Assembly: GCF_016446285.1 (NCBI RefSeq) | Contig: NZ_CP054140.1 | Coordinates: forward strand, 601,501 to 665,500 | Origin: Desulfobulbus oligotrophicus | GTDB lineage: Bacteria; Desulfobacterota; Desulfobulbia; Desulfobulbales; Desulfobulbaceae | Direction: 5' to 3' | DNA: 64,000 bases | Shown here: piece after piece, positions 27,347 to 64,000 of the stretch | Layout: each line of letters opens with the position of its first letter | How positions within the stretch are numbered: the stretch's first letter is position 1 | Position numbers and translations under genes: made by a program | The notes under the pieces: generated by a model | Seen by the model: the letters and a program-made list of their open reading frames with translations, nothing else | Databases searched by the model: none | What the model was told of the DNA's origin: nothing

Positions 27347-27379
27347 CTCCGACGCATCAGCCCCGGCTCCGGTAAGTAA
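27347..27379 (+). promoter_or_regulatory. Bipartite phage promoter-like motif, site 1
   Basis: CTCCGAC (27347-27353), 15 bases, CCGGTAAGTAA (27369-27379). It starts two bases after the sigma-like gene and lies ahead of the recombination/replication operon that begins at 27450. Part of a seven-copy set with fixed spacing. Confidence 0.75.
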
Positions 27380-27449
27380 GCACCGTGCCGCATGGTGCGG
27401 CTATCCGGGGCCTCGGAAATCAGAACCTGAACAAAAGAGGAGTTCAATC

Positions 27450-27788
27450 ATGACTCACGACACCTACAAGTACCGTTTTGACGAGTCGGTCCCGGCCCAG
27501 GAACTGGAAGACACTTTCATGCTGGCGATGCTGGCCGTCGAAAGCCTGCACGGACGTTCCCGTGTGCGGATGGAGAGCCGGTTCAATCTGGACAAGGCCC
27601 GCCGTACCTGCGTGATCGACGCCTCCACCGATGTCGGCAGTGATCTCGCCCGCATCTTTACCGGCTTCGCCACCAAGGAGTACGGCGAACGCTCGGTCCT
27701 GATCGAACGAACCCAGCCGTCGGGCTGTGCCTGCGCCTCCAAGCATCGCGCAGCGCCCGCCGCTGCTACAGCGGGGGTGGCGGTATGA
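27450..27788 (+). CDS. Hypothetical early protein
   Basis: 112 residues from ATG 27450 with GAGGAG upstream. Acidic, mixed alpha/beta, ending in a Cys- and Ala-rich tail ('SGCACASKHRAAPAAATAGVAV'). No domain recognised. First gene of the replication operon behind promoter-like site 1; the stop overlaps the nuclease start by four bases. Confidence 0.65.
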   Translation: MTHDTYKYRFDESVPAQELEDTFMLAMLAVESLHGRSRVRMESRFNLDKARRTCVIDASTDVGSDLARIFTGFATKEYGERSVLIERTQPSGCACASKHRAAPAAATAGVAV

Positions 27789-28801
27789 GCGAGCTAATGA
27801 CCACCACCTATTCCATGTGGCGGCTGTTCCGCAACTGCCGCATGGCCTGCAAGTGGCGCTACATCAACGAGCTGGTGCCGCTCGAGCGCGACCCCAATCT
27901 GGCCTTCGGCTCGGTCATTCACGACTGCCTGGAGTGCTGGCACGGTGAGCGAGATCTGGCCAAGGTCCTCGACCACATCGACCGGACCTATCCGAACCGG
28001 GCGCAGGACGATCATCAACAGGCCGACTGGCATCTCGCCAGGGCCATGATGAGCGCCTATGCGGAACACTACCCGGCTGAAGAGTTCGAGGTCGTCGCAC
28101 TCGAGAAGACCTTCGAAGGCCCCATCGTCAACCCGGCGACCGGGGCGACCTCGCGCAGTTTCATCCTCGCGGGGAAGGTGGACGGCATCGTCCGCCAGGA
28201 TGGCCAGTATTTCCTGCTGGAACACAAAACCGCCTCACAGATCGACGCCAGCTACCTGGAACGGCTGTGGACCGATTTCCAGATCATCCTCTACGCCTGG
28301 TACCTGGAGCAGACCCTCGGCATCACGGTCAGCGGCATCATCTACAACGTCCTGGTCAAGGCCAAGCTGCGCCAGGGCAAGGGTGAAACCGAAGCCGAAT
28401 TCGAGGCCCGCCGGGCGGAGCTGATCGCCAAGTCGAAAACCGGCAAGAGCAGCGCCAAGCGCAAGTTGCCCGAGGACGACGACACCTTCCAGCAGCGGCT
28501 CCAGGAGAAGTACCTCGAGCCGGGCATGTTCCACCGCGAGGTGCTCTACATCTCCCGCGACCAGTTCGAGGAACTGCGGGCGGAGCTGTGGGAACTCTCC
28601 AAGGCCATGCTCGACGCCCGTCGGCGCGACACCTTCTACCGCAACACAAGCTACTGCTTCCAGTACGGAAGGCCCTGCGCCTACTTCCAGCTCTGCCGCT
28701 CGGGCGGCAACCCCAACGTCATCGAAAACCATTTCCAACGGATCGCCCCGCACGAAGAGCTGCGGGACGGAGCCGGTGAAGACGCCGCTCCGGTGTTTTG
28801 A
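27785..28801 (+). CDS. PD-(D/E)XK nuclease, Cas4/RecB-like
   Basis: 338 residues. The nuclease core is 'GKVDGIVRQDGQYFLLEHKTAS' (Asp, then Glu-x-Lys, residues about 127-148). A Cys near the N-terminus ('NCRMACKW') and a C-terminal triplet ('YCFQYGRPCAYFQLC') match the iron-sulfur cluster arrangement of Cas4/AddB-type exonucleases. It probably resects phage DNA ends for recombination together with the ATPase and DUF669 genes that follow. No CRISPR genes are near, so it is not a CRISPR Cas4. Confidence 0.82.
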   Translation: MSELMTTTYSMWRLFRNCRMACKWRYINELVPLERDPNLAFGSVIHDCLECWHGERDLAKVLDHIDRTYPNRAQDDHQQADWHLARAMMSAYAEHYPAEEFEVVALEKTFEGPIVNPATGATSRSFILAGKVDGIVRQDGQYFLLEHKTASQIDASYLERLWTDFQIILYAWYLEQTLGITVSGIIYNVLVKAKLRQGKGETEAEFEARRAELIAKSKTGKSSAKRKLPEDDDTFQQRLQEKYLEPGMFHREVLYISRDQFEELRAELWELSKAMLDARRRDTFYRNTSYCFQYGRPCAYFQLCRSGGNPNVIENHFQRIAPHEELRDGAGEDAAPVF

Positions 28802-28827
28802 AATCCCAACCATAAGGAGACGAAGCC

Positions 28828-29598
28828 ATGCTTCCCAAGACCAAAAGCAAACCCAAACACACGCTCTCGGACCTCACCGCTCTGGTGTACGGCCCGAGCA
28901 AGATCGGCAAGAGCACCTGGTGCTCCAAGGCCGATGACGCACTGTTCCTGGCGACCGAGCCGGGCCTGAACGCCCTGGAGGTGTTCCAGACCCCGATCAC
29001 CTGCTGGGACGACCTCCTGCAGGCCTGCGCGGAAATCGCCGAGGGCAAGCACGAGTTCAAGACTATCGTCGTCGACACGGTGGATAACGCCTACAAGATG
29101 TGCTCGGACTACGTCTGCAAGAAATTCAAGATCGAGCACGAATCCGACCTGGGCTACGGCAAGGGCTACGCGCTGATCAACAACGAGTTCCAGCGCGTCA
29201 TCAACAAGCTGGCCTTCCTGCCCTATGGGCTGATCCTTATTTCCCACTCCCAGGAGCGGGACATCGAAACCCGGACCGGCAAACACACCCGCATCGTGCC
29301 GACGCTTCCGGAAAAGGCGCGGAAGCTGGTCACCGGCCTGGTGGACCTGATCCTGTTCTGCGACCTGGACATGAAAACCGGCGAGGACGGCAAGCCGGTC
29401 TGGCAGCGCGTGATGCGCACCAAACCCAGTCCCAACTACGACGCAGGTGACCGCACCGGCCGACTCCCCGAAGTCATCCCCCTTGATTTTCCGAGCTTCA
29501 TGAAAGCGTTCAACAACACGGCAGCCGGAGCTGCGGCGAGTGCCGCCCGGCCGAAGCCGGAGCCGACCGCGAGTGCGGCGGCGAAACCCCAACAGTAA
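28828..29598 (+). CDS. Sak4-like RecA-fold ATPase (phage recombinase)
   Basis: 256 residues. Walker A is 'VYGPSKIGKSTWC' (residues about 20-32) and a Walker B-like stretch is 'FKTIVVDTVDNAY'. 'YGLILISHSQERDIETRTGKHTRIVPTLP' is typical of the phage AAA/Sak4 family. The C-terminus is a low-complexity Ala/Pro tail. Members work as single-strand annealing or pairing proteins with a cognate SSB-like partner, here probably the next gene. Assigned by motif and context. Confidence 0.78.
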   Translation: MLPKTKSKPKHTLSDLTALVYGPSKIGKSTWCSKADDALFLATEPGLNALEVFQTPITCWDDLLQACAEIAEGKHEFKTIVVDTVDNAYKMCSDYVCKKFKIEHESDLGYGKGYALINNEFQRVINKLAFLPYGLILISHSQERDIETRTGKHTRIVPTLPEKARKLVTGLVDLILFCDLDMKTGEDGKPVWQRVMRTKPSPNYDAGDRTGRLPEVIPLDFPSFMKAFNNTAAGAAASAARPKPEPTASAAAKPQQ

Positions 29599-29610
29599 GG
29601 AGATCCGACC

Positions 29611-30084
29611 ATGGAACACTACGAAAACCAATCCAACAGCAACCTCGACCTGGCACAGTTCGACGACGCCTTCGAAACCGCCGAAGTCGAGGAGCGTGAG
29701 TTCGAGGCCGTCCCCGACGGCAAATACCAGGTCAACGTCGACCGGGTCGAACTGACTCGCGCCCAGACCTCGGGCAATCCCATGCTCAAGTGGACCCTGC
29801 GCATTCTCGCGCCGACCCACAAGGGCCGTCTGCTCTGGCGCAATAACGTCATGGCCAGCAATGAGAACATCAAGTGGCTCAAGCAGGACTTCTACACCTG
29901 CGGGCTGCAGCTTCAGAAGCTCTCCGACCTGCCGGGCCACCTCGAGCAGCTTCTCAACATCAAGCTGGAGGTGACCAAACGCACTCGCGGTGAAAACGAG
30001 AACATCTACTTCAACCGTCGCATTGTCATGGCCGACGATGCCGGGGCTCCCGGCGCGGCGATGGACGACATGATCCCGTTCTGA
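29611..30084 (+). CDS. DUF669-family SSB-like protein
   Basis: 157 residues. 'EAVPDGKYQVNVDRVELTRAQTSGNPMLKWTLRILA' followed by a Lys/Arg-rich segment fits DUF669 proteins found beside Sak4-like ATPases. The C-terminus ends in an acidic tip 'DDMIPF', like the partner-binding tail of SSB. Probably a single-strand DNA-binding protein of phage recombination. The stop overlaps the next start. Confidence 0.75.
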   Translation: MEHYENQSNSNLDLAQFDDAFETAEVEEREFEAVPDGKYQVNVDRVELTRAQTSGNPMLKWTLRILAPTHKGRLLWRNNVMASNENIKWLKQDFYTCGLQLQKLSDLPGHLEQLLNIKLEVTKRTRGENENIYFNRRIVMADDAGAPGAAMDDMIPF

Positions 30085-30566
30085 TGATGGACCGGATCAC
30101 CGTTGTCGTCGACACCCGCGAACAGGAGCCCTACAGCTTCGATAGTGACAAGGTTTCGGCGGTTCGCAAGGCGCTGCCCGCCGGTGATTACTCACTGGTC
30201 GGCCTTGAGGAACGGGTGGCGGTGGAGCGCAAATCCCTGACGGATTTCGTCTCCACCGTCATCCGGGGGCGAAAGCGGTTTCACCGCGAGCTGGAAAAGC
30301 TCTCCGCCTACGAATCCGCCTGCGTGGTTGTCGAGTGCAACTTTCGCGATCTGGTCGATGGCCGCTACCGCAGCGATGCCCACCCGCATGCGCTGATTGG
30401 AACGGTCGCCTCCATCGTCGTCGACTTCGGTGTCCCCGTCTACTTCTGCTCGGACCGGCAGGCCGCCTGCCGTTTTGTCGAGGAGTACCTGACACGTTTT
30501 CACCGGAGGATCGCGAGATGCCAAAAAGAAATGAGAGTAACCCGGCGCGACTCCGGGGAAGAATAG
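30084..30566 (+). CDS. ERCC4-domain nuclease
   Basis: 160 residues of the XPF/ERCC4 nuclease fold: 'VVVDTREQEPYSF', 'LPAGDYSLVG' and the signature 'VAVERKSLTDF' (ERKxxxD). There is no helicase or HhH domain, as in small phage-borne forms. It probably cuts branched or flap DNA during replication and recombination. It overlaps the RecD2-like gene by 49 bases. Confidence 0.85.
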   Translation: MMDRITVVVDTREQEPYSFDSDKVSAVRKALPAGDYSLVGLEERVAVERKSLTDFVSTVIRGRKRFHRELEKLSAYESACVVVECNFRDLVDGRYRSDAHPHALIGTVASIVVDFGVPVYFCSDRQAACRFVEEYLTRFHRRIARCQKEMRVTRRDSGEE

Positions 30567-32746
30567 AGCGCGTTTACTATGCCGGACCCAAGTTCTCCGC
30601 AGGCCGACTGCTCACCCCGACCGGTGAGGAAGTCCAGTTCGCGGGCAATTTGTTCGCCCGGGAAAATCAGCCTGTGGTCCTGCTCGGGTCGTGGTCCACC
30701 CATCCCAAATACGGCCGTCAGTTCAAGGTCGACGGGATGGAGCACGACCTCGAACTCGATCCGGAGGGGCTGATCCACTATCTGGCCAACCATCCAGAGA
30801 TCAAGGGCATTGGTCCGGTCAAGGCCAGATTGATCGTCGAGAGCTTCGGCGACGCCTTTGAAGAAACCCTTCTGAATGACCCCGAGCGCATCGCGCTCAA
30901 GGCTCGACTGCCTCTGGACGCGGCCCGGCGGCTGCGTGACGAATGGTTGAAGAACCGCAGCGTCAACACCGTCATGGCCTGGCTGTCGGCATTCGGCCTG
31001 ACCCATCATCAGGTCACCACCCTGGTCGAAAGACTCGGCGGCAACTGCCTCGATATCCTGAAGGAAGACCCGTACATCCTCATTCGGGAGATCCGGGGAT
31101 TCGGCTTCAAGAAGGTCGACAAGATTGCCCGCAAGCTGGGAACCCCCAAGGACCATACCCCTCGTATCCGCGCTGGGTTGAATTTCTGCGTCCGTGAAGC
31201 CCTGGACAATGGCCACTGCTGGATCGAATACGAAGATCTGGTGGACCAGGCCAATCTGCTGCTGGTCATGGATGCCCTGGACAGCCGGGTCCGTATCGAG
31301 AGCGCCCTCGACGCGCTCATCGAAGAACAGACGCTTTCCTGCGATTCCCACGGCGGGCGTTTCGTGGTCGCTCTGCCCGAGATCGTCCGCATGGAGCGGG
31401 AGCTGGCCTCGCTGTTCGGTCAGGCCGAAACACCCAACCCGCATTTCCACTCCGTCAAGAAACTCGATGCTCTGATTCGGCGCTGCGCGGCGACGCTGAA
31501 CGAGAAGCAGCTCGACGCGGTCCGCTCGGCCCTCAATCACAGCATCAGCCTGATCTCGGGTGGAGCCGGTTCGGGCAAGAGCTACACCATTTCGGTCATC
31601 AACACCATCTGCGAGGAGAGCGATCTGGAGGTCGTGCTCGCCGCGCCGACCGGCAAGGCGGCCAAGCGCCTGGAGGAAGTCAGCGGTCGCAGCGGCACCA
31701 CCATTCACCGCCTGCTCGGCTATGACGGCAAGGGTTTCTCCCGCAGCAAGGAGAACCCCATCGATGCCGACGTCCTGGTGGTCGACGAGTTTTCGATGGT
31801 CGACGTGCCGCTGGCCTGGCACCTGTTCGAGGCGGTCGATTTGTCGCGGACCACGGTGCTGCTGGTCGGGGACCACAACCAGCTTCCGCCGGTGGGACCC
31901 GGAAACATACTGCGCGATCTGATCCAGACACGCGCCATCCCCACGGTCATCCTCGACAAGGTCGTGCGCCAGGCTGGCGTCCTCAAGGAGAACTGCACCG
32001 CCGTTCTCAAGGGCGAGGTGTGCAAGACCAGCGAGGCGTCGGTGGCCGGATGCCGGGATTGGTACCTGGTGGATCAGTTCACCGATCCGATGGCTGCACG
32101 CTCGTTCCTGCTGGAGCTGTTTCAGGAGCGGCTCGACGCCCTGGGTTTCGACATCATCAAGGACGTGCAGGTGCTGACGCCGACCCACAAGGGGCCGCTC
32201 GGCACCAAGGAATTGAACGAGGAACTGCAGCGGCTCATCCAGCGAAAACTCTGGAACACCGAAGTACCGCCGGTCGCCATGGGCCGCCGCGCCCCGTTTC
32301 TCAAGCACGACAAGGTCATCCAGACCCGGAACAACTACGACCTGAACGTGATGAACGGTGCCATCGGCTATGTGGTCGATGTCCTCGCGAACGGCACCCT
32401 GGTCATCGACTTCGACGGCATGCCCGTGGAGATGGAAAAGGGTTCGCCCGACCTTCAGGACCTGCAGCTCGCCTATGCGCTCACCATCCACAAAACCCAG
32501 GGGTCCGAATTCCCCTGCGCCGTGGTGGTGGTCCACAAGGCGCATTCCTTCATGCACCACCGCAATCTGCTCTACACCGGGGTGACCCGCGCCCGGCGCA
32601 CCGCCATTGTCCTGGGCGACCATTGGGGCATCCAGAATTGCGCCAAGCGTTGCCAGGTGGATGACCGTCGGACCTTTCTGCCCCTGTTTCTGGACGCCGC
32701 CCAGCACGCGGAGGCCGATTTCGCCCGTGTCGCGGAGGCCGAATGA
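30518..32746 (+). CDS. RecD2-like DNA helicase
   Basis: 742 residues from ATG 30518, preceded by GGAGG inside the previous gene. An N-terminal OB-like region and helix-hairpin-helix repeats ('IKGIGPVKARLIVESFG', 'IRGFGFKKVDKIARKLG') precede the superfamily 1 core: Walker A 'ISGGAGSGKSYTI', Walker B 'VLVVDEFSMVD', 'LVGDHNQLPPVGPG', and C-terminal 'ALTIHKTQGSEFPCAVVV' and 'LYTGVTRARR'. A 5'-3' helicase for phage replication or repair. The antisense frame is also open for most of its length but is not coding. Confidence 0.9.
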   Translation: MPKRNESNPARLRGRIERVYYAGPKFSAGRLLTPTGEEVQFAGNLFARENQPVVLLGSWSTHPKYGRQFKVDGMEHDLELDPEGLIHYLANHPEIKGIGPVKARLIVESFGDAFEETLLNDPERIALKARLPLDAARRLRDEWLKNRSVNTVMAWLSAFGLTHHQVTTLVERLGGNCLDILKEDPYILIREIRGFGFKKVDKIARKLGTPKDHTPRIRAGLNFCVREALDNGHCWIEYEDLVDQANLLLVMDALDSRVRIESALDALIEEQTLSCDSHGGRFVVALPEIVRMERELASLFGQAETPNPHFHSVKKLDALIRRCAATLNEKQLDAVRSALNHSISLISGGAGSGKSYTISVINTICEESDLEVVLAAPTGKAAKRLEEVSGRSGTTIHRLLGYDGKGFSRSKENPIDADVLVVDEFSMVDVPLAWHLFEAVDLSRTTVLLVGDHNQLPPVGPGNILRDLIQTRAIPTVILDKVVRQAGVLKENCTAVLKGEVCKTSEASVAGCRDWYLVDQFTDPMAARSFLLELFQERLDALGFDIIKDVQVLTPTHKGPLGTKELNEELQRLIQRKLWNTEVPPVAMGRRAPFLKHDKVIQTRNNYDLNVMNGAIGYVVDVLANGTLVIDFDGMPVEMEKGSPDLQDLQLAYALTIHKTQGSEFPCAVVVVHKAHSFMHHRNLLYTGVTRARRTAIVLGDHWGIQNCAKRCQVDDRRTFLPLFLDAAQHAEADFARVAEAE

Positions 32747-35700
32747 GTATGGGCGGAACGGATAACGTCAGGGAGTATTACCGGCACGTCACCGAGATGG
32801 ACATCGGTGACGTGGCCCGGGAACTCCTGCCGGGACGGATCACCCAGGAGACCGGCCAGCGCTTGATGTGCGACTGCCCCAACCATCAGAGCCAGTCGCG
32901 TCTGTCGCTGCACGTGATGCTCGACAAGCAGGGCTGGTACTGCTTCGGCTGCGGAGTCGGCGGTGATGTGCTGCAGCTCGTTGAGTTCATTCAGACGGGC
33001 TCGGTCACCGCCGGGCAATCCGGTCCGATGCCGGACAGCCACCGTCAGGCCCGGGACTATCTCGCCAAGAAGGCGGGCTTGCCGCCGCTGTCGCGCTATG
33101 GCCTCAGCCAGGAGCGTCTCGCCCAGACGGAGGCCGACCGCGCCTTCGAACTGCGGGTCAAGGACGCGCTGACCTCGCTGGCCAGGCTTTACCACGCCAG
33201 ACTCAAAGAGTCGCCGGAGGTCCTCGACTGGCTGAAATCCAAATACGCCCTGAGCGAGGAGACCATCGACGATCTCCTGATCGGCTACGCGGACAACGCG
33301 TCCGGCGCGGTCGCCCAACTGACCGGGGGTGAGGACGGTTTCTCCAAGCGGGAGCTCGCCGCCACCGGCGCTTTCCGTCCCACCAGCCAGGACGGCCTGA
33401 CGCCATTTTTCGAGCGCCGGATCGTCTTTCCCTACTGGAGCCGTGGCCGGGTGGTGTTCATGATCGGCCGCAAGACGCCGTGGACCCCGGACGTTGGCTG
33501 GGAGCAAGGGAAATACAAGAAACTGCCGGTTCACGACGAACACCAACGGCCTTACGTCGCCGACTTCATCAACAACGCGCTGCTGTTCAACGAGGACTGC
33601 CTGCTGGCGAGGCCCGGCAAGGTGATCATCACCGAGGGGGTGACCGATTGCTTGGCGCTGATGCAACTGGGCCTGCCCACCGTATCTCCGGTCACCGTCC
33701 GCATCCGGGCCGCCGATTGGGAGCGCCTGATCCCCAAGCTGCGCGGCGTCGAAACTGTCTACATCTGCCAGGACAACGAACTCTCCCAGGCCGGTCTCAA
33801 AGGGGCGCTGCAAACCGCTCGCACCCTGGCCGAACACAAAATCGACACCCGCCTGGTGACGCTGCCCTTGTCGGAGACACAGCTCTCGGCCCGGCAGGAG
33901 CTGACCGAACGCTTCGGCCTGACGGCAAGCGTGGGGCCGAAGGAGCTGGCCAAGCTACTGGCGGGACGTCCCGCCGAGGAAATCCAGGCGGCCGAGGCGC
34001 TTCTCGCCATCGCCAAGATCGACGTCAACGATTACATTGCCGCCGGGCATACCCTGGAGGATTTCGAACGCCTGCTCGCCGAAGCCAGCACGCCCATCGA
34101 ATTTGGTGTGCGCTCGTTGCCCGAGGGCGCTGAAGAGGAAGAACGCAACCGCCTGCTTGAACCGGTCCTGGGGGAAATTTCCGAACAGTCGCCGCTGGAA
34201 CAGGCACGCCTGCTGAAGCTGGTGCAGGAGCGCATCGGCGGTGGTGTTTCCATGGCCACCCTGAAGGAACAGATCCGCGCCATCCAGAAGGACCGCAAGG
34301 TCGAGTTCCGCAACGAAAAGAAAAAGGCCAAGCGGATGTCCGGCGCAATGCCCGGATCATGCCGCGCCCGGGTCGACGAGGTGCTGATCGACACGGAGCT
34401 GGAGAACGGCGCTCCCGACTACACCTTGGCAGCCGAGGCGGCCTACGACTGGTTTACCGCCAACGGTGCCCAGTTCTTTCATACCCTGCAGGGTGAGCCG
34501 TTCATGTATTTCGACAACGCCATCTACTGGATGGATTCGCCAGACCGGGGCCGAAAGCGCCACTACGCGGCCATGCTCTACAAGCACACGGGCATGGTGC
34601 CGACATCCAACGGCGGACGGACATTTTTCGAGGTGTTACCCAGCCTGGCCATGATCCGTGGCCAGGTGCGCGACCATTTCTCCTGGCTGCATACCGATGT
34701 GGCTTCCTACACCGTCTATTTCAACCTGAACAATCCGGAGCACGAGATCGCCAAGATCACCCCGGACGAAATTCAGATCATGAAGAATGGCGGCAACGAG
34801 GACGGCATCATCCTGGACGGCTCGCGCAAGATGAAGCCGCTGAAATTCCTGCCCGACGCCGACCTCGAAGAGGCGGACCGGCTCCTGGTCGATCTGCTGG
34901 TGGGCAACATGACCTGTCCACAAGGAGATCGCTTTCTCATCCTTTCCTGGCTCTCCTGTTTCTTGCTGATCGACTTCGCCGGGACGCGGCCCATGACCCG
35001 CTTCGAGGGCTCGGCCGGATCGGGCAAGACCACTGCCAGCAAGATCACGTCGACGCTGCTTTACGGCGAGCCCCAGCACAAGAAGGCCACCGACGCGGCG
35101 AACTACACCGACGGCTCGCAGAACCCGCTCATCGTCCTCGACAACATCGAGGTCAAGCAGATGACCGAGGATCTGACCACCTTCATGCTGACCAGCATCA
35201 CCGGTATCGCCAAGGAGAAACGCAAGAGCGGCACCGACAGCGAGACCATCACCGAGCGGACCAAGTGCCTGCTGAACACCACCGGCATCGAGCCGCTGTG
35301 CGGAGAGCTTTCGGAGATTCTGTCGAGGTCCTTCGTCATCAACTTCGACCTCGCCAACCAGGCCAGCGACTGCTTTCTAGAGTCGGAGGTCATCTCCGCC
35401 ATCCAGCAGAACCGGGACCTGATCATCTCGGCCATTATGAAGCGGACCAGCCATGTGTTGGCGATGATCCGGGACGGAGCCCAGAAACAGGTCATGCGCC
35501 TGCTGCACCGAACCATGCCGACCCATGGCAAGCGCCGGTGCAACGATTATCTGAGCCTGATGTACCTGATGATGCTGGCCGGGTCCGAGGAACACGAGGT
35601 GACCAGCGGACTCGAGGACCTGAGCCCGCTGTTCATCGAGCAGATCCATTCCATCAACGACACCAGCCAGGAGATGGCGCGGGAGTCGAACCCCATTGCC

Positions 35701-36054
35701 ACGGCGTTGGCGTCGCTCTTCCATGCCTACCGGAACGCGGTGGAGCTGGACGAGAAAGCCCGCTACGGCGAGGACGACCGGGCAAACCACGTGGTGGGGT
35801 TCATCGAACGCTACCAGGTGAGGTTCGAGAACGAGAACACCATGGAGCCGGTGTCGGCGGGACGGCTGCTCGCGGCGCTGCGCAGGGTCGGCCGGGAATT
35901 CAACCTCGAATTCGAATACAAGAAGCCCGCCCAGCTCGGTCGGCGCATCAGCAACGACCTGGACGTCATCCGGGACGCCGGGTTCGACATCGACCGGCAG
36001 CGCAACACCCACACCAAAAACTTCGAGTATCGCATCGGTAGCAGAGGTGTTTAA
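32743..36054 (+). CDS. Primase-helicase fusion (CHC2 zinc finger, Toprim, P-loop ATPase)
   Basis: 1103 residues. A DnaG-type zinc finger (Cys-rich 'CDCPNHQS' and 'WYCFGCGVGGDVLQLVEF', about residues 42-80) leads to a Toprim-like core ('VIITEGVTDCLALMQLG', 'VYICQDNELSQAG'), where the usual DxD reads Asp-Asn-Glu. The C-terminal half has a P-loop 'FEGSAGSGKTTASKI' (about residue 765) and 'NPLIVLDNIEV', resembling phage/plasmid helicases. It probably primes and unwinds phage DNA, doing the job of separate DnaG and DnaB. It overlaps the RecD2-like gene by four bases. Confidence 0.85.
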   Translation: MSMGGTDNVREYYRHVTEMDIGDVARELLPGRITQETGQRLMCDCPNHQSQSRLSLHVMLDKQGWYCFGCGVGGDVLQLVEFIQTGSVTAGQSGPMPDSHRQARDYLAKKAGLPPLSRYGLSQERLAQTEADRAFELRVKDALTSLARLYHARLKESPEVLDWLKSKYALSEETIDDLLIGYADNASGAVAQLTGGEDGFSKRELAATGAFRPTSQDGLTPFFERRIVFPYWSRGRVVFMIGRKTPWTPDVGWEQGKYKKLPVHDEHQRPYVADFINNALLFNEDCLLARPGKVIITEGVTDCLALMQLGLPTVSPVTVRIRAADWERLIPKLRGVETVYICQDNELSQAGLKGALQTARTLAEHKIDTRLVTLPLSETQLSARQELTERFGLTASVGPKELAKLLAGRPAEEIQAAEALLAIAKIDVNDYIAAGHTLEDFERLLAEASTPIEFGVRSLPEGAEEEERNRLLEPVLGEISEQSPLEQARLLKLVQERIGGGVSMATLKEQIRAIQKDRKVEFRNEKKKAKRMSGAMPGSCRARVDEVLIDTELENGAPDYTLAAEAAYDWFTANGAQFFHTLQGEPFMYFDNAIYWMDSPDRGRKRHYAAMLYKHTGMVPTSNGGRTFFEVLPSLAMIRGQVRDHFSWLHTDVASYTVYFNLNNPEHEIAKITPDEIQIMKNGGNEDGIILDGSRKMKPLKFLPDADLEEADRLLVDLLVGNMTCPQGDRFLILSWLSCFLLIDFAGTRPMTRFEGSAGSGKTTASKITSTLLYGEPQHKKATDAANYTDGSQNPLIVLDNIEVKQMTEDLTTFMLTSITGIAKEKRKSGTDSETITERTKCLLNTTGIEPLCGELSEILSRSFVINFDLANQASDCFLESEVISAIQQNRDLIISAIMKRTSHVLAMIRDGAQKQVMRLLHRTMPTHGKRRCNDYLSLMYLMMLAGSEEHEVTSGLEDLSPLFIEQIHSINDTSQEMARESNPIATALASLFHAYRNAVELDEKARYGEDDRANHVVGFIERYQVRFENENTMEPVSAGRLLAALRRVGREFNLEFEYKKPAQLGRRISNDLDVIRDAGFDIDRQRNTHTKNFEYRIGSRGV

Positions 36055-38147: not shown

Positions 38148-38676
38148 GCGGTGGTGCGGTGATCACCGCTGTCCCTTGCGGTGGATGACCACCGCACGCC
38201 AAACCCTTGCCAGACAAGGCTTTCATGGCCTTTGCGGTGGTTGCGGTGGTAAATCCAGAGGTCTCACCCCCTATGGGCTGAAATATTTTTTCTACCTACC
38301 AACCCGACATCCCACGCCAGGGAAATTCCGGCCCAGCGTGAGAGACATTCCCCAAATACCACCGCAACCACCGCACTCTATCTTCTCTTTCTTCATAACT
38401 ATCTAAAACTAAATAACAAACAAAGAACTACCCTCCTGCGGTGGGACAAGAAAACCTTCCACCGCACGACCACCGCAACCACCGCACATATCCACCGCAG
38501 CGGGTGGTCACCGACGGTTTCAGGGCAGCTCCGGTAAGTAACGGGAAAAGCGATTAACCCGTATTTCTGGAGCCTGAAACCATGAGCCTTCTGAAAACCA
38601 TGATCAAGCACACCGCCGGAGGGCAGGAAGCCTCGGCCGGATGTGAAACCCCATTATTACCACCGCAACCACCGCA
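38147..38676. repeat. Iteron-like CCACCGCA cluster, candidate phage replication origin
   Basis: Fourteen exact copies of the octamer TGCGGTGG or its complement occur in about 530 bases: forward at 38147, 38177, 38233, 38242, 38437; reverse at 38189, 38359, 38368, 38459, 38470, 38479, 38492, 38660, 38669. Several are paired nine bases apart. An AT-rich stretch (38377-38430) sits among them. The last two copies fall inside the next gene and give it a Pro-Gln-rich segment. Iterons beside AT-rich DNA, near a primase-helicase gene, suggest an origin; binding protein and activity are unproven. The intergenic part (38091-38581) holds no supported gene. Confidence 0.65.
38509..38541 (+). promoter_or_regulatory. 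Bipartite phage promoter-like motif, site 2
   Basis: CACCGAC (38509-38515), 15 bases, CCGGTAAGTAA (38531-38541); one mismatch to the CTCCGAC box. It ends 40 bases before the gene at 38582 and starts the structural half of the element. Confidence 0.75.
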
Positions 38677-39352
38677 GCCCGCCATCTATGTCTCCACCGG
38701 GCTCGACATCCACGAGATCGAAGACGCCCGCGACTGGCCTGAAGACATGGAGATCGACGGCACGCTGTGTCGCCGTCTGTCGCCTGAATACTTTGCCTGG
38801 CTACGTTCCCGCATGGTCACCGCCCAAACCGCGCACAAGGCCGGAAAGCTCCCCGAGGATGCCTGGAATACGCTGCGGCAGCGATTCAACGCCATGCAGG
38901 AACTGTCCATCCGGGAGTTCGGCAAGGAACACTTGCAGGAGGTCCTGCAGTCCTTTCCCCCGAAGAACTACCAGCCACCCGCGCTTCGTCCCGAGTCCCA
39001 GAAGAAACCCGTCGAAGTTCCAAGAAAGGACTGGATTTATCCCGGGAACCAAGCTTGGAAATGTAAGCAGCCGGTGACTTCCCAGGCTGTCGCCAAGGTC
39101 GACGCCATCCGTGAGGAGGCCATGGCCAAGGGCTGGTCCGAGGCACGCCTCTTTCAGAACCAGGGCCGATTCCGGTTTCCCTGCGGCGAGGACTACGGCC
39201 TGGTCTGTTTCGTCGATGGCGATCAGGAGATTGGCGAGGTCACCGAGCGTTCTATCGAAATTATCCACGGGCCGAAGTCCGGGCGTCCCAGCACGCTGCG
39301 GTTCTACAACCCGGACGTGCCGCAGCCGTGGATGAAGAAAGTGGAGGATTGA
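38582..39352 (+). CDS. Hypothetical phage protein
   Basis: 256 residues. The N-terminus contains a Pro-Gln segment ('LLPPQPPQPAIY') encoded by two iteron octamers. The rest ('DMEIDGTLCRRLSPEYFAWLRSRMVTAQTAHKAGKLPEDAW' and a C-terminal 'GRFRFPCGEDYGLVCFVDGD') is not recognised. First gene behind promoter-like site 2 and four bases upstream of the HTH gene, so an early-late regulator or packaging helper is possible. No function assigned. Confidence 0.65.
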   Translation: MSLLKTMIKHTAGGQEASAGCETPLLPPQPPQPAIYVSTGLDIHEIEDARDWPEDMEIDGTLCRRLSPEYFAWLRSRMVTAQTAHKAGKLPEDAWNTLRQRFNAMQELSIREFGKEHLQEVLQSFPPKNYQPPALRPESQKKPVEVPRKDWIYPGNQAWKCKQPVTSQAVAKVDAIREEAMAKGWSEARLFQNQGRFRFPCGEDYGLVCFVDGDQEIGEVTERSIEIIHGPKSGRPSTLRFYNPDVPQPWMKKVED

Positions 39353-39355: not shown

Positions 39356-39634
39356 GTGAAGAAAAAGAAGCGCTACGCCAACGCCAAGGATGTCCTGCCC
39401 GAGGAACTCTTCGAGCAGATCCAGAAGCACTACACCGGAATTCTCTGGGTTCCTGCACCGAGCCGCTTCTACCAGGAACGCCGCGACCTAGTGCTTGCCC
39501 TTCATCTGCAGGGGATCAGCAGCCAGGAGATCTCCAACCTCGCCGGAGTGACCACCCGCCGGGTCAACCAGATCATCGCCGCCGAACGAAAACAGGGTCG
39601 GGACCGACAGTTTAGCGCCGCTTCCGGTAAGTAA
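39356..39634 (+). CDS. Small HTH regulator, Mor/CD3324-like
   Basis: 92 residues from GTG 39356. 'KDVLPEELFEQIQKHYTGILWVPAP' followed by 'LVLALHLQGISSQEISNLAGVTTRRVNQIIAAE' matches small HTH proteins related to the Mor transcription activator. Its last codons overlap promoter-like site 3. It may regulate late transcription alongside the sigma-like factor. The assignment is from the HTH pattern. Confidence 0.7.
   Translation: MKKKKRYANAKDVLPEELFEQIQKHYTGILWVPAPSRFYQERRDLVLALHLQGISSQEISNLAGVTTRRVNQIIAAERKQGRDRQFSAASGK
39602..39634 (+). promoter_or_regulatory. Bipartite phage promoter-like motif, site 3
   Basis: Core CCGAC (39604-39608), 15 bases, CCGGTAAGTAA (39624-39634), overlapping the end of the HTH gene and lying 92 bases before the small terminase gene. 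Confidence 0.75.
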
Positions 39635-54484: not shown

Positions 54485-55348
54485 ATGAAAACCAATCAGT
54501 TGAAGATCCATTCCCAGGAATACATGGAAACCATGGCGCGGCTCATGAGCGAGGCTCTCGAGTCGCCCGAAGGCATGCGGGCGCTTGCCGCCGCCATTGC
54601 CGCGCCCATCGAACAGGAGATCAAGCGCAAGGAGATCTCCTCGCTGCTGCTCACCAAGCACACGCTGCCCAAGGGCGAACGTCCGGTCTACCAGAAGAAA
54701 CCGACCGTCAAGGCCCACTGGATCAGCAAGGACGGCGACGCCCAGGAGCAGGAGGTGGGCAAGGACGAGGTCGAGTTCCCCACCAACCGCATCCACTCCA
54801 ACCCGATGGTGGACGTTTCCGTCCTCAAGAACGGCAACATCGGCACGCTGATGGACATCCAGACCAGCGCCGCCGACGCCATCCGTAAGGAGATGGACCG
54901 CCGCACCATCTCGGTGCTCTCCTCGGCCATCCCGGCGGCCAACACCATCGAGGTCACCGGCGATTTGCTCACCGAGGATGCACTGAACGAGGCCATCTCG
55001 ATCATCGAGGACCTGGAGCTGTCGGTGAAGTACATCGTCATGCGCGGCCGCCGGTTCAACGACATGCGCGGCTGGAACCTCGATCCCCAGACCAAGCTCG
55101 AGCTGCGCCAGAAGGGTGTCATCAAGAACTACGGCACCGGCGGCATTCTGCTGACCGCCTCCATGCCACTGGACGAGATCATCATCGTCCCGGATGAAGA
55201 GGTCGGGAAGATGCCGGTGCGCGAAAACCTGAAGACGGAGTCCATCGACCAGAAGACCCGCTTCAAGACCGGCTGGCTGGTGTGGTCCGAGATCGGTCAG
55301 GGCATTACCCGCTCCGACATCATGGCCAAGGTCAAACTGGTTCCGTAA
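54485..55348 (+). CDS. Major capsid protein, HK97-like
   Basis: 287 residues. The N-terminal helix region (about 1-60) and the stretches 'PTNRIHSNPMVDVSVLKNGNIGTLMDI', 'DRRTISVLSSAIPAANTIEVTGDLLTEDALNEAI' and 'GGILLTASMPLDEIIIVPDEEVGKMPVRENLK' fit phage HK97-fold capsid proteins; the gene order (protease, decoration, capsid) agrees. It forms the icosahedral shell. Confidence 0.87.
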   Translation: MKTNQLKIHSQEYMETMARLMSEALESPEGMRALAAAIAAPIEQEIKRKEISSLLLTKHTLPKGERPVYQKKPTVKAHWISKDGDAQEQEVGKDEVEFPTNRIHSNPMVDVSVLKNGNIGTLMDIQTSAADAIRKEMDRRTISVLSSAIPAANTIEVTGDLLTEDALNEAISIIEDLELSVKYIVMRGRRFNDMRGWNLDPQTKLELRQKGVIKNYGTGGILLTASMPLDEIIIVPDEEVGKMPVRENLKTESIDQKTRFKTGWLVWSEIGQGITRSDIMAKVKLVP

Positions 55349-57000: not shown

Positions 57001-57033
57001 CTCCGACACATCGCCAGCGCTTCCGGTAAGTAA
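57001..57033 (+). promoter_or_regulatory. Bipartite phage promoter-like motif, site 6
   Basis: CTCCGAC (57001-57007), 15 bases, CCGGTAAGTAA (57023-57033), just after the tail-completion gene and 24 bases before the tail operon start. Confidence 0.8.
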
Positions 57034-57876: not shown

Positions 57877-57878
57877 CC

Positions 57879-59408
57879 ATGCCGACCTATCTATCGCCCG
57901 GGATTTACACCCGGGAAACGGACTTCAGTTTCTATGTAAAGCAGATCTCAACCTCGTCGGCCGCCATGGTCGGGGTGGCCGAGAAAGGTCCGATCAACAA
58001 GCCCGTGCTGGTGACGAGCTGGGAGCAGTTCATCAACCGTTTCGGCTCCTATATCAACGAGAGCTATCTGGCCTACGCCGCCCGGGCGTTTTTCGACAAC
58101 GGCGGCTCGGTCCTCTATGTCACCCGCATCGCCCATCTCACCGATCCCACCGACCGGGACACCCTGACGGCGCTCAAATCTTCCATCGTGCTGCAGAACC
58201 GGGAGGCGACGCCCGCCGACGCCCTGCGGATCGAGGCCGTGAACGAAGGCGTCTGGGGGGACCGGCTCTCCGTCTCCATTGAGGATGGCTCGCTCGACCC
58301 GGCCAACCATTTCAACCTGGTGGTCCGGCATAAAGGCGATGTGGTCGAGGTGTTCAAGGATCTGAGCATGGACGAGACGCTGCCCAACCATGTGGAGCTG
58401 GCGATCAACGACCGTTCGGATTTCATCCTGGTCCAGGATCTGGCCTCCGCAACGGGAGCGCCCGGCGACCGTCCGGCATTGGGCGTGTTCACACTCACCG
58501 GCGGTGACAACGGGCTGACCGACCTGGCCGATGCCGATTTCATCGGCGATCCCTCGCAGCATACAGGCATCTATGGCTTTGACGAGATCGACGCCCTGAA
58601 CCTGCTGATGGTTCCCGGCGTCACGACGGTGCCGGTGATCAACGCCGGAATCGCCTATGCCGAAGGGCGCAAGGATCTGCTGTTCATCGCCGACACGCCC
58701 ATGCATCTGGAGCCGCTCGAAGCGGTCGACTTCCGCAAGGGACAAGGGATGTACAGCCACGCGGCCTTCAACTCCTCCTATGCGGCGCTCTACTACCCCT
58801 GGCTGGAGATCAGCGATCCGGTCAACTCGCGCAAGAAGCTGGTGCCGCCCTGCGGCGCGGTGGCGGGCTGCATCGCCCGCAGCGACCAGAAGACCAACGT
58901 CTGGAACGCGCCCGCCGGTATCGACCGGGGCCGCATCTTCAACACGCTCTCCCTGGCCTACAAGACCAGCCGTGGCGAGCGCGATGTGCTCTATCCGGAA
59001 GGGGTCAACGTCATCGCCGTGTTCCCCGACACCGGCATCAACATCTGGGGGCAGAAGACACTGCAGAGCCAGCCATCGGCCGTGGACCGCATCAACGTCC
59101 GCCGCCTGATGATGTACATGGAGGAAGCCATCTCGGAATCCTCCCGCTTCGTGGTGTTCGAACCGAACCATCCCCAGACCTGGCGTGCCCTCGGCCGCCT
59201 GATCAATCCCTTCCTTCAGGACATCAAGGACAAGGGTGGCCTCTACGACTTCGCCTTCCAGTGCGACGAGGAGACCAACACCCCGGCGGTCATCGACCGC
59301 AACGAAATGGTGGCCCGCGTGTTCGTCAAGCCGACCAAGACGGCGGAGTTCATCGAGCTGAACTTCATCCTGACCAGCACCGGCGCGGACTTCAAAGAAA
59401 TCATCTAA
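57879..59408 (+). CDS. Tail sheath protein
   Basis: 509 residues. 'YLSPGIYTRETDFS', 'TSSAAMVGVAEKGPINKPVLVTSWEQFINRFG', 'AARAFFDNGGSVLYVTRI' and the C-terminal 'INVRRLMMYMEEAISESSRFVVFEPN' are diagnostic of contractile tail sheaths. This shows the phage is myovirus-like (or a related contractile particle). Followed directly by the tube gene. Confidence 0.95.
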   Translation: MPTYLSPGIYTRETDFSFYVKQISTSSAAMVGVAEKGPINKPVLVTSWEQFINRFGSYINESYLAYAARAFFDNGGSVLYVTRIAHLTDPTDRDTLTALKSSIVLQNREATPADALRIEAVNEGVWGDRLSVSIEDGSLDPANHFNLVVRHKGDVVEVFKDLSMDETLPNHVELAINDRSDFILVQDLASATGAPGDRPALGVFTLTGGDNGLTDLADADFIGDPSQHTGIYGFDEIDALNLLMVPGVTTVPVINAGIAYAEGRKDLLFIADTPMHLEPLEAVDFRKGQGMYSHAAFNSSYAALYYPWLEISDPVNSRKKLVPPCGAVAGCIARSDQKTNVWNAPAGIDRGRIFNTLSLAYKTSRGERDVLYPEGVNVIAVFPDTGINIWGQKTLQSQPSAVDRINVRRLMMYMEEAISESSRFVVFEPNHPQTWRALGRLINPFLQDIKDKGGLYDFAFQCDEETNTPAVIDRNEMVARVFVKPTKTAEFIELNFILTSTGADFKEII

Positions 59409-60578: not shown

Positions 60579-60721
60579 GCGACGCATTTTTTCTCGCTTA
60601 CGGCGGACTGCACTGGGGCTGGTCGGAAACCCGCTCGCTGCCGCTCAGGGTCCGGCGTCAGTTCGTCGAGGCCCTCGAGCGGCAGCTTGATTTTGAACGT
60701 GAGCAAACGGAACGGCGATAG
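60551..60721 (+). CDS. -1 frameshift extension of the tail chaperone
   Basis: The heptamer T-TTT-TTG (60551-60557, zero-frame codons TTT TTG) fits the X-XXY-YYZ slippery rule. A -1 shift continues in an open frame from 60557 to the stop at 60719-60721, one base before the tape-measure ATG, adding 54 residues including 'GGLHWGWSETRSLP', a pattern common in chaperone T-domains. No separate start with a ribosome binding site serves this frame. The shift efficiency is unknown. Confidence 0.75.
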   Translation, partial: FFVPRSSLVSDAFFLAYGGLHWGWSETRSLPLRVRRQFVEALERQLDFEREQTERR

Positions 60722-63700
60722 ATGAACGGCGATCTCGGACTGGGCATAGTGGTATCGATGAAGGATGCGTTCTCGCAGAACGCGCAGCGCATCCGTGGCT
60801 CCATGATGGACCTCGATTCCACCGTGGCTGATGCCAGCGAGCGGATGACCCGCAACCTGGACCGTATCCAGCAAGGCACCATGATGCTGGGGGCGGGGCT
60901 GGCCCTGATGGCAGTGCCCGCCGCCTTGGTCGCCTCCACCGCCGCGACCCAGAAGGCCCTGGGAGAGCTGGCGTCCTTGGGCGTGCAGGATCTCCGTGCC
61001 ATCGAGGACGCCGCCGAATCCTTCACCAACCAATGGTCCGGTGCCGACAAGGCCGCCTTCATCACCGCCACCTACGACGTGAAATCGGCCCTGTCCAACC
61101 TCAGCGACGAGGCGGTGGGCGTCTTCACCTCCATGGCCGCCATGACCGCCAAGGCGACCAAGGCCACCACCCAGGAGATGGTCGGCACCTTCACCACGGC
61201 CTACGGGATCTTCAAGCCCATCATGGCCGACATGAACGACATGGAATGGGCGACCGCCTTTTCCGGAGCCATGGCGCAGACCGTGGCCTCGTTCAAGACC
61301 AATGGCACCCAGATGGCCGACGCCATCAAGAACATCGGCGCGGTGGCGGCGGCGAGCAACATTCCCCTGAACGAACAGCTCGCCGTGCTCGGCCAGCTCC
61401 AGACCACCATGCCCGGCTCCGAGGCGGGCACGCTGTACAAGGCGTTCATCATGAAGGCGGCCGAGGCCGGGGACGAGCTGGGGCTGTCCTTCACCGACAC
61501 CAGCGGCCGCCTCAAGGGCGTGGTTCCTATCCTGCAAGAGATCAAGCGCCAGTTCCCCGACCTCTCCAACGCCGCCGCCCAGGTGAAGCTGAAGAAGGCC
61601 TTCGGCTCCGACGAGGCGGTCAAGTTCCTGCTGCAGATGTCGGCGGGCATGGAGAGCCTCGAAGGCAATATCCAGTCGGTAGGCCGGGCCATGAAGACAG
61701 GCACGGCGGTCACCGAACAGATGGCCGACGCCATGAACCAGGACATCGGAGCCCGGTTCCTGCTTCTGCGCCAGCAGATGGCCAACCTCAGCGAAATCCT
61801 GGGCCGCACTCTGCTGCCGGTGGTCACGCCGGTGATCAACGGCGTCTCCCGCTTCATTCTATTCCTGCAACGCATGGCCAAATCGATGCCGGGCGTGACC
61901 CGAGTGGTACTGGGGCTGTCCATGGCCCTCGGCACCATTCTGGTCGTGGCCGGAGCCGTCACCGCCGCCGTGGGCATGGTGGGACTCATGCTTCCCGCCA
62001 TCAAGGCCGGGTTCGTGGCCATCAGCGCCGCGCTGGCCGGGGTGGGTTCGGCGGTCGCGACCTATTTTTTGCCCGTCACCGCGATCATCGCGGGCGTGAT
62101 CCTCTCGGTGTATCTGCTCAAACGCGCCTGGGAAACCAACTTCGGCGGCATTCAGGAGATCATCACCGGGGCCTGGAACAAGGTCTCGCTGGTCTTCCAG
62201 GGGATCAGAGAGCTGGTGGGTTCGCTCAGCGGCGGCGTCGGGCAGATGTCGTCCGAACTGGCCCAGAAGCTCGAATCCGCCGGACTGCTGGGCTTCGTGG
62301 TCACCGTCTTCAAAGCCTATTACCGCGTTCGTGAGGCCCTGGCCGGATTGTGGGGCGCGTTCTCCCATGCCTTTGGCCGCATCCGCGCCATCCTCGAACC
62401 AACCGTCCGCACCCTGATGAGCGCCTATGCGGCACTGGCCAGCGCGGTCTTTTCAGTGGTGGAAATCTTCGGCGTGGCCGCCAGCGCCACCGACGGGTCG
62501 TCCTGGCGTACCTTCGGCACGGTTATCGGCACCGTCGCCGGTGTGCTTCTGCAGGGGTTGGCGTTCGCGCTGAAGATTGTGGCCTGGAACCTGTCGCTCA
62601 TCGTCCGAGCCCTGGCGGTGGTGGTGCGCAGCGTGGTCTGGGTCGGCAAGGCCATCGTCGGGTCACTGGTCGGAGCGGCCAAGTTCATCTACAAGTTCCT
62701 GTTGCCCGTGCGCATGATCGGCGAGGCATTCGTGGCCGCCGGGAAGATCATCTATGCGGTCTGGCAAGTACTGACCGGCGACATCTCCCTGCTGGACGGG
62801 CTCAAGGCCATTGGCGGCGCGGTCTACGATTTTCTTGCCACCCCGTTCCGCTGGGCGCGGGATGTGGTGGTCGGGGTCTGGAATTTCATTTCCGGCATCT
62901 TCACCTCCATCGGACGCCTGGTAGCCGACGCCGCCGGACAGATCGGCCAGGCGATTCTGAATCTGCCGATCATCAGCACCCTGCGGGAGCTGTTTGCCAC
63001 CGTGCGCTCCTTCTTCGCCGGGGACACCACCTTCTTCGAGGCGGGCAAAAAGCTGCTGATCACCCTTGGCGAAGGGATCTGGTCGGCGGTGACCTATCCC
63101 TTCACCATGCTCAAGAACGCCCTGGGCAAGCTGCGCAATCTGCTGCCGTTCTCCGATGCCCGCGAGGGACCGCTCGCCAGCCTGACCGCCTCCGGGTCCG
63201 CACTGCTCAAGACCCTCGCCGACGGCATGAGCCTTACCCAGTCGCTGCCCGCGAAAGTGTTCGGCTTCGCCGCTCGCGGGATTCTCTCGGCCGCTGCGGG
63301 AGCCTGGCAGCAGATCAAATCGGCGGGCGGAAACCTCATGGACGCCGCCTCAGCTCCCTTCCGCATGGCCGGAAAACTCTGGGACGGTCTGACCTCCGGG
63401 GCTCAAAGCGTCGCGGCCAAGGCCGGTGCCATCTTCGGCGGTCTCAAACAATCCCTGTTTGGCGACACGCCTGAGCTGGCAATCACGCCGCCCCAGGTCA
63501 ATGCCTGGGATGCGCTGGCCACGGGAGCCGTCACTGTCCGCGACCGGATCGTTGACACGCTATCGGCCGTGCCCGGCGCTGTCGGTCGAATCTTTACCAA
63601 CGCCGGTGCCGAGGGGCAAACCCTCTGGCAGAGGCTTTCCAGCGGCGCGAGCGCGGGCATTCAGGCGATCAAGGATCGCAGCGCCGGGATCGCCAACGGT

Positions 63701-64000
63701 TTGTTCTCCTCCGCTCGCGCCATGCTGGGAGTACAGACTCCGATTCCGCAGGTGGCCGAACAGAAGCAACCGTTCAAGGCCGCGCAGCCCGCCGAATCGA
63801 TTGGACAACGCATCATCGAAAGCGTGCTCAGTCTGGTGCCGCGTCTGGACGAACGCCTGGTGCCCAAGGCCTTGAGCGCCATGCTGATGCTCCAGCCGGT
63901 CATGTCCACGGCCGCGCCACCCCCACAACCGATGAACGGCACCGTGCAGACCGTCGCGGCGGCCGTCGAGCCGGTAAGTAAGAGCTACATCCAGCCGTTT
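60722..64000 (+). CDS. Tail tape measure protein (partial, runs off window)
   Basis: At least 1093 residues; no stop before the window end. The TMP core domain ('DASERMTRNLDRIQQGTMMLGAGLALMAVPAALVASTAATQ', 'FTTAYGIFKPIMADMNDMEWATAFSGAMAQTVASFKTNG', 'LPLDEQ'-like segment 'IPLNEQLAVLGQLQTTMPG') is followed by several hydrophobic segments (about residues 370-480 and 590-700) and Ala-rich helices. It sets tail length and is injected with DNA. The last codons contain a copy of the promoter-like motif. Confidence 0.93.
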   Translation, partial: MNGDLGLGIVVSMKDAFSQNAQRIRGSMMDLDSTVADASERMTRNLDRIQQGTMMLGAGLALMAVPAALVASTAATQKALGELASLGVQDLRAIEDAAESFTNQWSGADKAAFITATYDVKSALSNLSDEAVGVFTSMAAMTAKATKATTQEMVGTFTTAYGIFKPIMADMNDMEWATAFSGAMAQTVASFKTNGTQMADAIKNIGAVAAASNIPLNEQLAVLGQLQTTMPGSEAGTLYKAFIMKAAEAGDELGLSFTDTSGRLKGVVPILQEIKRQFPDLSNAAAQVKLKKAFGSDEAVKFLLQMSAGMESLEGNIQSVGRAMKTGTAVTEQMADAMNQDIGARFLLLRQQMANLSEILGRTLLPVVTPVINGVSRFILFLQRMAKSMPGVTRVVLGLSMALGTILVVAGAVTAAVGMVGLMLPAIKAGFVAISAALAGVGSAVATYFLPVTAIIAGVILSVYLLKRAWETNFGGIQEIITGAWNKVSLVFQGIRELVGSLSGGVGQMSSELAQKLESAGLLGFVVTVFKAYYRVREALAGLWGAFSHAFGRIRAILEPTVRTLMSAYAALASAVFSVVEIFGVAASATDGSSWRTFGTVIGTVAGVLLQGLAFALKIVAWNLSLIVRALAVVVRSVVWVGKAIVGSLVGAAKFIYKFLLPVRMIGEAFVAAGKIIYAVWQVLTGDISLLDGLKAIGGAVYDFLATPFRWARDVVVGVWNFISGIFTSIGRLVADAAGQIGQAILNLPIISTLRELFATVRSFFAGDTTFFEAGKKLLITLGEGIWSAVTYPFTMLKNALGKLRNLLPFSDAREGPLASLTASGSALLKTLADGMSLTQSLPAKVFGFAARGILSAAAGAWQQIKSAGGNLMDAASAPFRMAGKLWDGLTSGAQSVAAKAGAIFGGLKQSLFGDTPELAITPPQVNAWDALATGAVTVRDRIVDTLSAVPGAVGRIFTNAGAEGQTLWQRLSSGASAGIQAIKDRSAGIANGLFSSARAMLGVQTPIPQVAEQKQPFKAAQPAESIGQRIIESVLSLVPRLDERLVPKALSAMLMLQPVMSTAAPPPQPMNGTVQTVAAAVEPVSKSYIQPF
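63949..63981 (+). promoter_or_regulatory. Bipartite phage promoter-like motif, site 7 (inside the tape-measure gene)
   Basis: GACCGTC (63949-63955; CCGTC in place of CCGAC), 15 bases, exact CCGGTAAGTAA (63971-63981). Unlike the others it lies within a coding region, where it encodes 'EPVSKS'. Same spacing and orientation. It may drive baseplate genes just beyond the window, or the match may be partly by chance. Confidence 0.55.

Follow-up and report, generated by a model that had tools for sequence, protein, structure and literature searches.

SPO1 and T4 are virulent phages, and the PBSX prophage, from a Bacillus host, needs a sigma-like protein of its own, Xpf, for its late genes. Phage-encoded sigma factors switch on middle and late genes in SPO1 (gp28 and gp34) and T4 (gp55) (PMC9429907). 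Here we describe a sigma factor of the extracytoplasmic function (ECF) type and a recurrent two-box motif, CCGAC-N15-CCGGTAAGTAA, both carried by a prophage in a 64,000-nucleotide stretch of Desulfobulbus oligotrophicus DNA (NZ_CP054140.1, positions 601,501 to 665,500; hereafter the window, whose numbering is used unless otherwise stated). Comparison with related phages makes it very probable that the motif is the promoter of this sigma factor and that a broad array of phages, among them phage WO of the insect symbiont Wolbachia, have inherited the two together. By description, the sigma factors of SPO1 and T4 do what is proposed for this one, redirecting host polymerase to phage-specific promoters; the present protein differs from them in being a two-domain, ECF-type sigma and in residing in a prophage with a LexA-type repressor. 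As a promoter class of a phage ECF-type sigma factor the motif is of a known kind, the family and its reach appearing new; no published promoter of this kind was found in titles and abstracts of the open-licence literature.

The product of 26761-27345 is an ECF-type sigma factor, possessing regions 2 and 4 without region 3. It scored 51.7 bits against TIGR02937 (cut-off 42.9), and the phage sigma profile phrog_1740 matched residues 19-187, covering both regions (4.5e-25). In an AlphaFold2 model built from 35 sequences the helices of both regions were confident (pLDDT 76.6, pTM 0.41), and because of the pTM the placement of the two regions relative to each other is uncertain. The top Foldseek matches in the PDB were mostly ECF sigma factors, with TM-scores of 0.26-0.32 by query length among the first 16; these low values probably reflect the uncertain placement of the regions. 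The best fold matches, E. coli sigmaE and M. tuberculosis SigH, likewise consist of regions 2 and 4 only, the composition that marks the ECF family and that is found in this protein.

Exact copies of CCGGTAAGTAA occur at 27369, 38531, 39624, 44565, 51628, 57023 and 63971, each time on the plus strand, and 15 bases upstream lies CCGAC in six of the seven and CCGTC in the last. The first-pass annotation of this DNA had recorded these seven copies, their fixed 15-base gap and the longer spelling CTCCGAC in four of them, and each of these counts was reproduced; with up to three mismatches allowed the window held 8 matches, compared with a shuffle mean of 0.35, and none of 100 shuffles reached 8. 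In the whole 3.1-Mb genome CCGNC-N15-CCGGTAAGTAA matched nine times, always on the plus strand, and the reversed pattern not at all; the nine sites, two of them beyond the window, span genome positions 628849 to 673949, within 45 kb and one prophage, with CCGAC as the -35 box in 8/9 and CCGTC in 1/9. At eight of the nine, a sequence resembling a ribosome-binding site (RBS) and a start codon follow 24-91 nt past the -10 box. The exception, the site at 63951, falls inside the tape-measure gene and not at a gene end (Table 1); a divergent relative (G003:34101) has a site with different flanks at what is, judged by spacing, the equivalent place. The earlier statement that the repressor module is free of the motif overlooked a copy that has two mismatches and lies on the minus strand, between repressor and integrase operon, and that is also present in four other loci (L131, L133, L139, L142). 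A GGAACTT -35 box is typical of many, though not all, ECF sigma factors, and the distance between the two boxes is ECF-like. The -35 box of RpoE is GGAACTT (PMC8103513); in contrast to bacterial ECF sigma factors, CCGAC or CCGTC stands in its place here, and the targets are phage modules.

From these sequences we infer transcription from the sites, its timing and direct binding by the sigma factor, as follows. In the lysogen the LexA/S24-type repressor would silence the element; upon induction, the sigma gene would be transcribed from an early promoter lacking the motif, and its product would then take host core RNA polymerase to the CCGAC-N15-CCGGTAAGTAA promoters. Region 4 would read the -35 element, CCGAC(A/G) plus the following TT, and region 2 the -10 element, CCGGTAAGTAA. 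The units switched on would be the replication block, which begins right after the sigma stop codon, the blocks for packaging, head, tail and baseplate, and the leftward integrase operon.

The linkage between site and sigma was followed across phages in several sets. A pattern scan of IMG/VR returned at least 120 stretches, and 33 loci, one per record, were searched for the sigma factor; in this set, which is biased, having been chosen by motif, the sigma matched in 13/33, and in 12 of the 13 a site lay next to the 3' end of its gene. Among the 20/33 motif-bearing contigs without a sigma match, several with many sites (such as G003, G023, G024, G026 and G028) stop short, by coordinate reading, of the place where the sigma gene is expected, and some with a single site (G002, G004, G011, G016) look like chance matches. 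The second set was chosen by sigma and was blind to the motif: a profile of 14 sigma factors found 101 relatives, 80 of which were used, and a model of this genome's nine sites was run over each stop codon, together with 70 nt of sequence ahead of it and 80 nt behind it. Where the sigma factor was less than 60% identical to that of the window, 60/66 loci beat all 30 shuffles, and in 0/66 did the stretch upstream of the sigma gene score better. After dereplication at 85% identity a site was present at the sigma 3' end in 36/38 (p<0.05), with 29/38 at the floor of 1/301; in one clade it overlaps the end of the gene. Scores of at least 15 were obtained at 28/38 sigma ends versus 8/475 control gene ends of the same contigs, and those eight resemble further sites. 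Across the 36 sites the -10 box never varies at G-T-A, nor the -35 box at one C, and no spacer column exceeds 0.5 bit, a comparison in which selection by best score favours the box columns and not the spacer. Three more profiles gave a more distant set of 79, 69 and 80 overlapping loci, from which 76 were examined. Once redundant and short loci were set aside 48 remained, and a general model derived from the first set detected a site in 28/48 (p<0.05). The downstream gene lay on the same strand at 55/60 dereplicated sites versus 568/1200 controls when open-ended open reading frames (ORFs) were counted, and at 125/157 in an earlier count with little dereplication and cut ORFs dropped.

The same linkage was seen in the 198 genomes of the phylum with completeness of at least 95%. 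The sigma (E<=1e-15) was found in 8 of these, an exact site in 11 and both in 7, so that exact sites occur in 7/8 sigma carriers versus 4/190 others. The sigma is present in all six genomes that hold at least three exact sites; the four with an exact site and no sigma at that threshold (G068, G123, G204, G271) hold one or two sites each, and the three of them examined (G068, G204, G271) proved to be restriction-modification (R-M) islands at the phage attachment core, rather than phages. This was the outcome of a search for the motif without the sigma, which the first-pass annotation had put forward as a test of its proposal; what was found is that phage operons are preceded by a recurrent, promoter-like site which is inherited together with the sigma.

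In a phage collection searched with four different sigma queries, no named phage beyond WO carried this sigma family. The sigma of the WO replication module (gwv_1123 / ADW80161, 'sigma-70 domain protein') is 28% identical in alignment to that of the window, and the two share an N-terminal stretch, both regions and the phrog_1740 match. As in the window, the WO sigma is followed by AAA24-type replication genes and has a site of equal geometry directly 3' of it; unlike those of the window, the WO boxes are AT-rich, TGGAC-N14/15-CCGTGTATATA or CGGAC...CGTACATATATA, and their spacing varies by one base. In WOVitA1 (HQ906662, 10-50 kb; KX522565, full) the spelling TGGACGAATT...CCGTGTATATA occurs three times. 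One copy lies immediately 3' of the sigma gene and precedes the RepA operon, a second precedes the VrlC/tail operon, and the third the resolvase/methylase/terminase/head operon. In the wMel-type WO (MN180251, first 50 kb) the spelling is CGGACGAATT...CGTACATATATA, and its three sites occupy equivalent places; one was obtained from the scan and two from reading the gaps afterwards. In both phages a site in the phage's own spelling stands before each of three lytic units; WOVitA2 (L249) gave two looser matches. Kent et al. (2011) noted the sigma-70 gene of WO and suggested that it directs polymerase to the replication genes (PMC3173496); the word 'promoter' is absent from the main text of that article, and the words 'sigma' and 'promoter' are absent from the main text of PMC9203015. 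According to a 2020 review, Wolbachia has as many as four additional sigma factors, 158-181 aa long, and their targets, like those of its other sigma factors, were still to be determined (PMC7397232). A 2025 Cappable-Seq study gave only sigma70-like and TAAAAT motifs; heat produced no sign of lytic entry in wMelPop-CLA, and highly expressed starts of WO tail genes were reported (PMC12558409).

The sites of one phage also drift together: in 34 contigs the match of the other sites to the contig's own sigma-adjacent site was 623, compared with a permuted mean of 538 (sd 7.3, maximum 575; 20000 permutations), and spellings are phage-specific (CCAGTAAATATC in L202 and L204, CCGGTAGAGAAC in L217, TCGTCA in L198). 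The sequences, the homology of the sigma factors, and the adjacency, orientation and concerted drift of the sites are direct observations. A role as operators or stoperators of the phage repressor would suit the number of the sites, their single orientation and their mostly intergenic position. At its own promoter, though, the LexA-type repressor has a candidate operator of another kind, a palindrome, and the sites stand before gene starts and change together with the sigma-adjacent site; we hold such a role to be very improbable. The motif as repressor operator was rejected on the observation that the repressor palindrome occurs in just one exact copy and does not resemble the motif.

Signals acting in RNA, for antitermination or processing, would be compatible with the RNA, akin to Rfam sRNA-Xcc1 (RF02221), that the leaders right behind some sites form on folding. 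Such matches were present in the leader after the sigma-adjacent site in 4/6 loci scanned (L230 5203-5289, L048 7417-7506, L217 7130-7218, L219 10584-10667), all under the curated score of 53 (L230: 44.7 bits, E 8e-5), and L245 and L228 gave no RF02221 match. By eye the window leader shares just a short stretch with these leaders. The leader RNA was sought and seen at sigma-adjacent sites only, in those four of six loci, and an RNA signal predicts no contrast between sigma regions of the kind described below, leaving a function in RNA very improbable. A signal acting in RNA only was discarded, as Rfam found nothing in window 26000-64000 and the leader RNA elsewhere lies past the boxes.

If the motif is the promoter of the sigma factor, region 4 would be expected to vary with the -35 box and region 2 with the -10 box. 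Partial Mantel tests were applied to each region, given the other, against each box, and the contrast was judged against random splits of the sigma columns. For 38 pairs, region 4 correlated with the -35 box (r=0.33) and hardly with the -10 box (0.04), and region 2 with the -10 box (0.36) and hardly with the -35 box (0.02); the contrast gave p=0.009, or p=0.0095 without the alpha-type clade and p=0.042 without the TCGTC clade. In an enlarged set of 64 pairs, from which the weak sites L353, L271 and L311 were dropped and to which the WO-like pair L259 was added by hand, the contrast gave p=0.0013, with region 2 at 0.492 against the -10 box (p=0.002) and region 4 at -0.152 against that box. In the 61 pairs without WO-like loci, region 4 tracked the -35 box (0.197, p=0.006) and not the -10 box (0.064, p=0.17), region 2 tracked the -10 box (0.198, p=0.004) and not the -35 box (-0.059, p=0.85), and the contrast gave p=0.023. 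The 26 new loci alone gave p=0.009 for the contrast, with region 2 at 0.607 against the -10 box and 0.254 against the -35 box, and region 4 at -0.256 against the -10 box.

A number of results weigh against the assignment of the motif to the sigma factor. The Pfam scores of the protein for region 2 and region 4 (r4_2) are slightly under the curated cut-offs. Adjacency fails in G022, one of the 13 sigma-bearing contigs of the motif-first set; the general model found no site at 20/48 of the distant sigma loci, several of which are without a visible one (L259, WO-like, is among the 20 and has an obvious site that the model missed); G241 carries the sigma and no exact site; and the WO of Allonemobius (L247) has the sigma and no visible site. 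Furthermore, 26/60 sites are centred inside an ORF called by a crude caller. In the covariation tests, the 38-pair contrast was not significant without WO (p=0.138), which weakened what had looked at first like a clean double dissociation. With 64 pairs region 4 by itself did not follow the -35 box (0.097, p=0.126) and region 2 followed that box too (0.134, p=0.030), so that only the contrast holds; without WO-like loci region 2 correlated with the spacer (0.226) as it did with the -10 box (0.198); and in the 26 new loci region 4 stood at -0.024 against the -35 box. The contrast between regions and boxes recurs though the single correlations do not all hold, and it is taken as support for the assignment, short of proof.

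Activators commonly turn on the late genes of phages, and a DNA-binding protein of that sort, encoded by the phage apart from the sigma (Mor/C-, Ogr- or late-regulator-like), could bind the sites and leave initiation to a host sigma factor, the sigma-like gene being a passenger; an AAA_24-type gene also follows the sigma, here and in WO, which would fit this reading. This explanation we judge improbable, given two non-palindromic boxes at a fixed distance, the contrast between sigma regions (with its caveats), the ECF-type architecture of the protein and a site that adjoins the sigma gene even in very divergent phages. The first-pass annotation had read the boxes as -35 and -10 elements of the alternative sigma factor encoded upstream of site 1, and that proposal gains support from the ECF identity of the protein, adjacency in the motif-blind set, orientation, covariation of the boxes within genomes and, with the caveats given, covariation with the sigma regions.

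The prophage (Table 1) is larger than first described. Its left end lies at 19493, at the tmRNA 3' end, and the left-end sequence recurs next at genome position 710389, where the DNA before it shares 91% identity with the DNA before the same core in another genome; because of these two positions the prophage is probably about 89 kb long. A scan of about 30 window proteins gave the module order as leftward integrase operon, LexA/S24 repressor, sigma, replication, terminase, portal, minor head, protease and major head, sheath, tape measure and baseplate. The ORF behind site 3 has a weak match to terminase small subunits (E 1.2e-4). In the capsid block, 51692-54091 encodes an unusual fusion, in which a D12-type N6-adenine methyltransferase domain is followed by a weak prohead-protease match. 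The last 23-24 kb of the prophage (genome about 686947-710388; L010 6948-15001, L454 1-15388) have a different codon pattern and may be defence cargo, because PglZ and DEAD-helicase genes lie upstream of the core in L435.

Table 1. Coordinates of the prophage features in the window
Feature	Position	Strand	Remarks
tmRNA (ssrA)	19145-19501	+	integration site
Left attachment core CCTCCACCATTTAGAAAAGACAAACCCGTC	19493-19522		at tmRNA 3' end
Leftward operon	19921-22512	-	recombinase-like 19921-20373, large serine integrase 20340-21926, DUF2924 21919-22512
Weaker leftward site	22915-22885	-	2 mismatches; between repressor and integrase operon, ~370 nt upstream of the latter
Palindrome ACCTGA-N6-TCAGGT	22941-22958		candidate autoregulatory operator in the repressor's sigma70-like promoter; sole exact copy in window
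LexA/S24-type repressor	22974-23645	+	self-cleaving type by homology
ECF-type sigma factor gene	26761-27345	+	194 aa, regions 2 and 4; directly upstream of site 1
Site 1	27349-27379	+	directly 3' of sigma gene, upstream of replication block; RBS-linked start 70 nt past -10 box
Replication/recombination block	27785-36054	+	after site 1; PD-(D/E)XK nuclease, Sak4/AAA_24, SSB-like DUF669, RecD2-like helicase, primase
Site 2	38511-38541	+	upstream of ORF 38582-39352
Site 3	39604-39634	+	upstream of ORF 39726-40226 and terminase block
Terminase large subunit	43012-44535	+	
Site 4	44545-44575	+	upstream of portal gene
Site 5	51608-51638	+	upstream of 799-aa D12-methyltransferase/S78-protease-like gene and major head gene
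Major head protein	54485-55348	+	
Site 6	57003-57033	+	upstream of tail genes (sheath 57879-59408)
Site 7	63951-63981	+	CCGTC variant; within tape-measure gene 60722-64357; no RBS-linked start close by

The attachment core is also where sites without a sigma were found. Tandem arrays (L131 1523-1805; L435 9400-9682; L454 15136-15398) have the core preceded by the end of another element, and therefore phages and islands stack at one place; in L436 and L254 the tmRNA gene itself ends in the core. A cassette starting at the core (0-4 mismatches) holds sites in G204, G271, G182, G272 (two copies), G068 and G053, and the sigma is absent from four of these six genomes (G204 and G271 at E<=1e-15, G053 and G068 at E<=0.01), G182 and G272 having it. 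From the core outward, the cassette consists of a conserved leftward ORF of 62 aa, intact, interrupted or partial depending on the copy, then a single site or a pair (69-72 nt apart where measured) placed to drive it, followed in L435 by what is by eye an XRE-like regulator; type I R-M genes, some of them broken, were present in all four cassette loci scanned (L435, L436, L437, L253). Sigma-type promoters with no sigma beside them were observed at L435 9653-10458 and in L436, L437, L438, L440, L253, L254 and L255. No integrase was found among 20 selected cassette proteins scanned with Pfam. The 62-aa ORF occurs in 11/395 genomes at 12 places, with a site upstream at 6/12 and the core nearby at 8/12; no relative of it was found in the prophage of the window. 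In the motif-bearing, sigma-less relatives G053, G068 and G071 the sites lie on short or ending contigs, the first two of which hold the island cassette and the third a divergent form of its small ORF.

The islands may be satellites, sigma-triggered defence islands or decayed remnants, each of which is possible. A broader and tentative proposal, which we think has rather less than an even chance of being right, is that a single ECF-sigma promoter language links the prophages of sulfate reducers with Wolbachia phage WO and is used as well by elements lacking the sigma; the R-M islands, which share with the phage the tmRNA core and a 30-nt left end, would then be satellites or phage-triggered defence islands, taking the phage sigma as their induction signal and perhaps using the phage integrase for movement.

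Phage sigma factors with promoters of their own are known from a few model phages. Here a whole family, found in prophages and in phages from metagenomes, brings its promoter along, and therefore the regulon of such a phage can often be read from its genome. Naturally diverged pairs of sigma and promoter could serve as orthogonal expression sets. For Wolbachia, the sites predict promoters that would fire when phage WO enters the lytic cycle, and the question of what its sigma factors target becomes directly testable.

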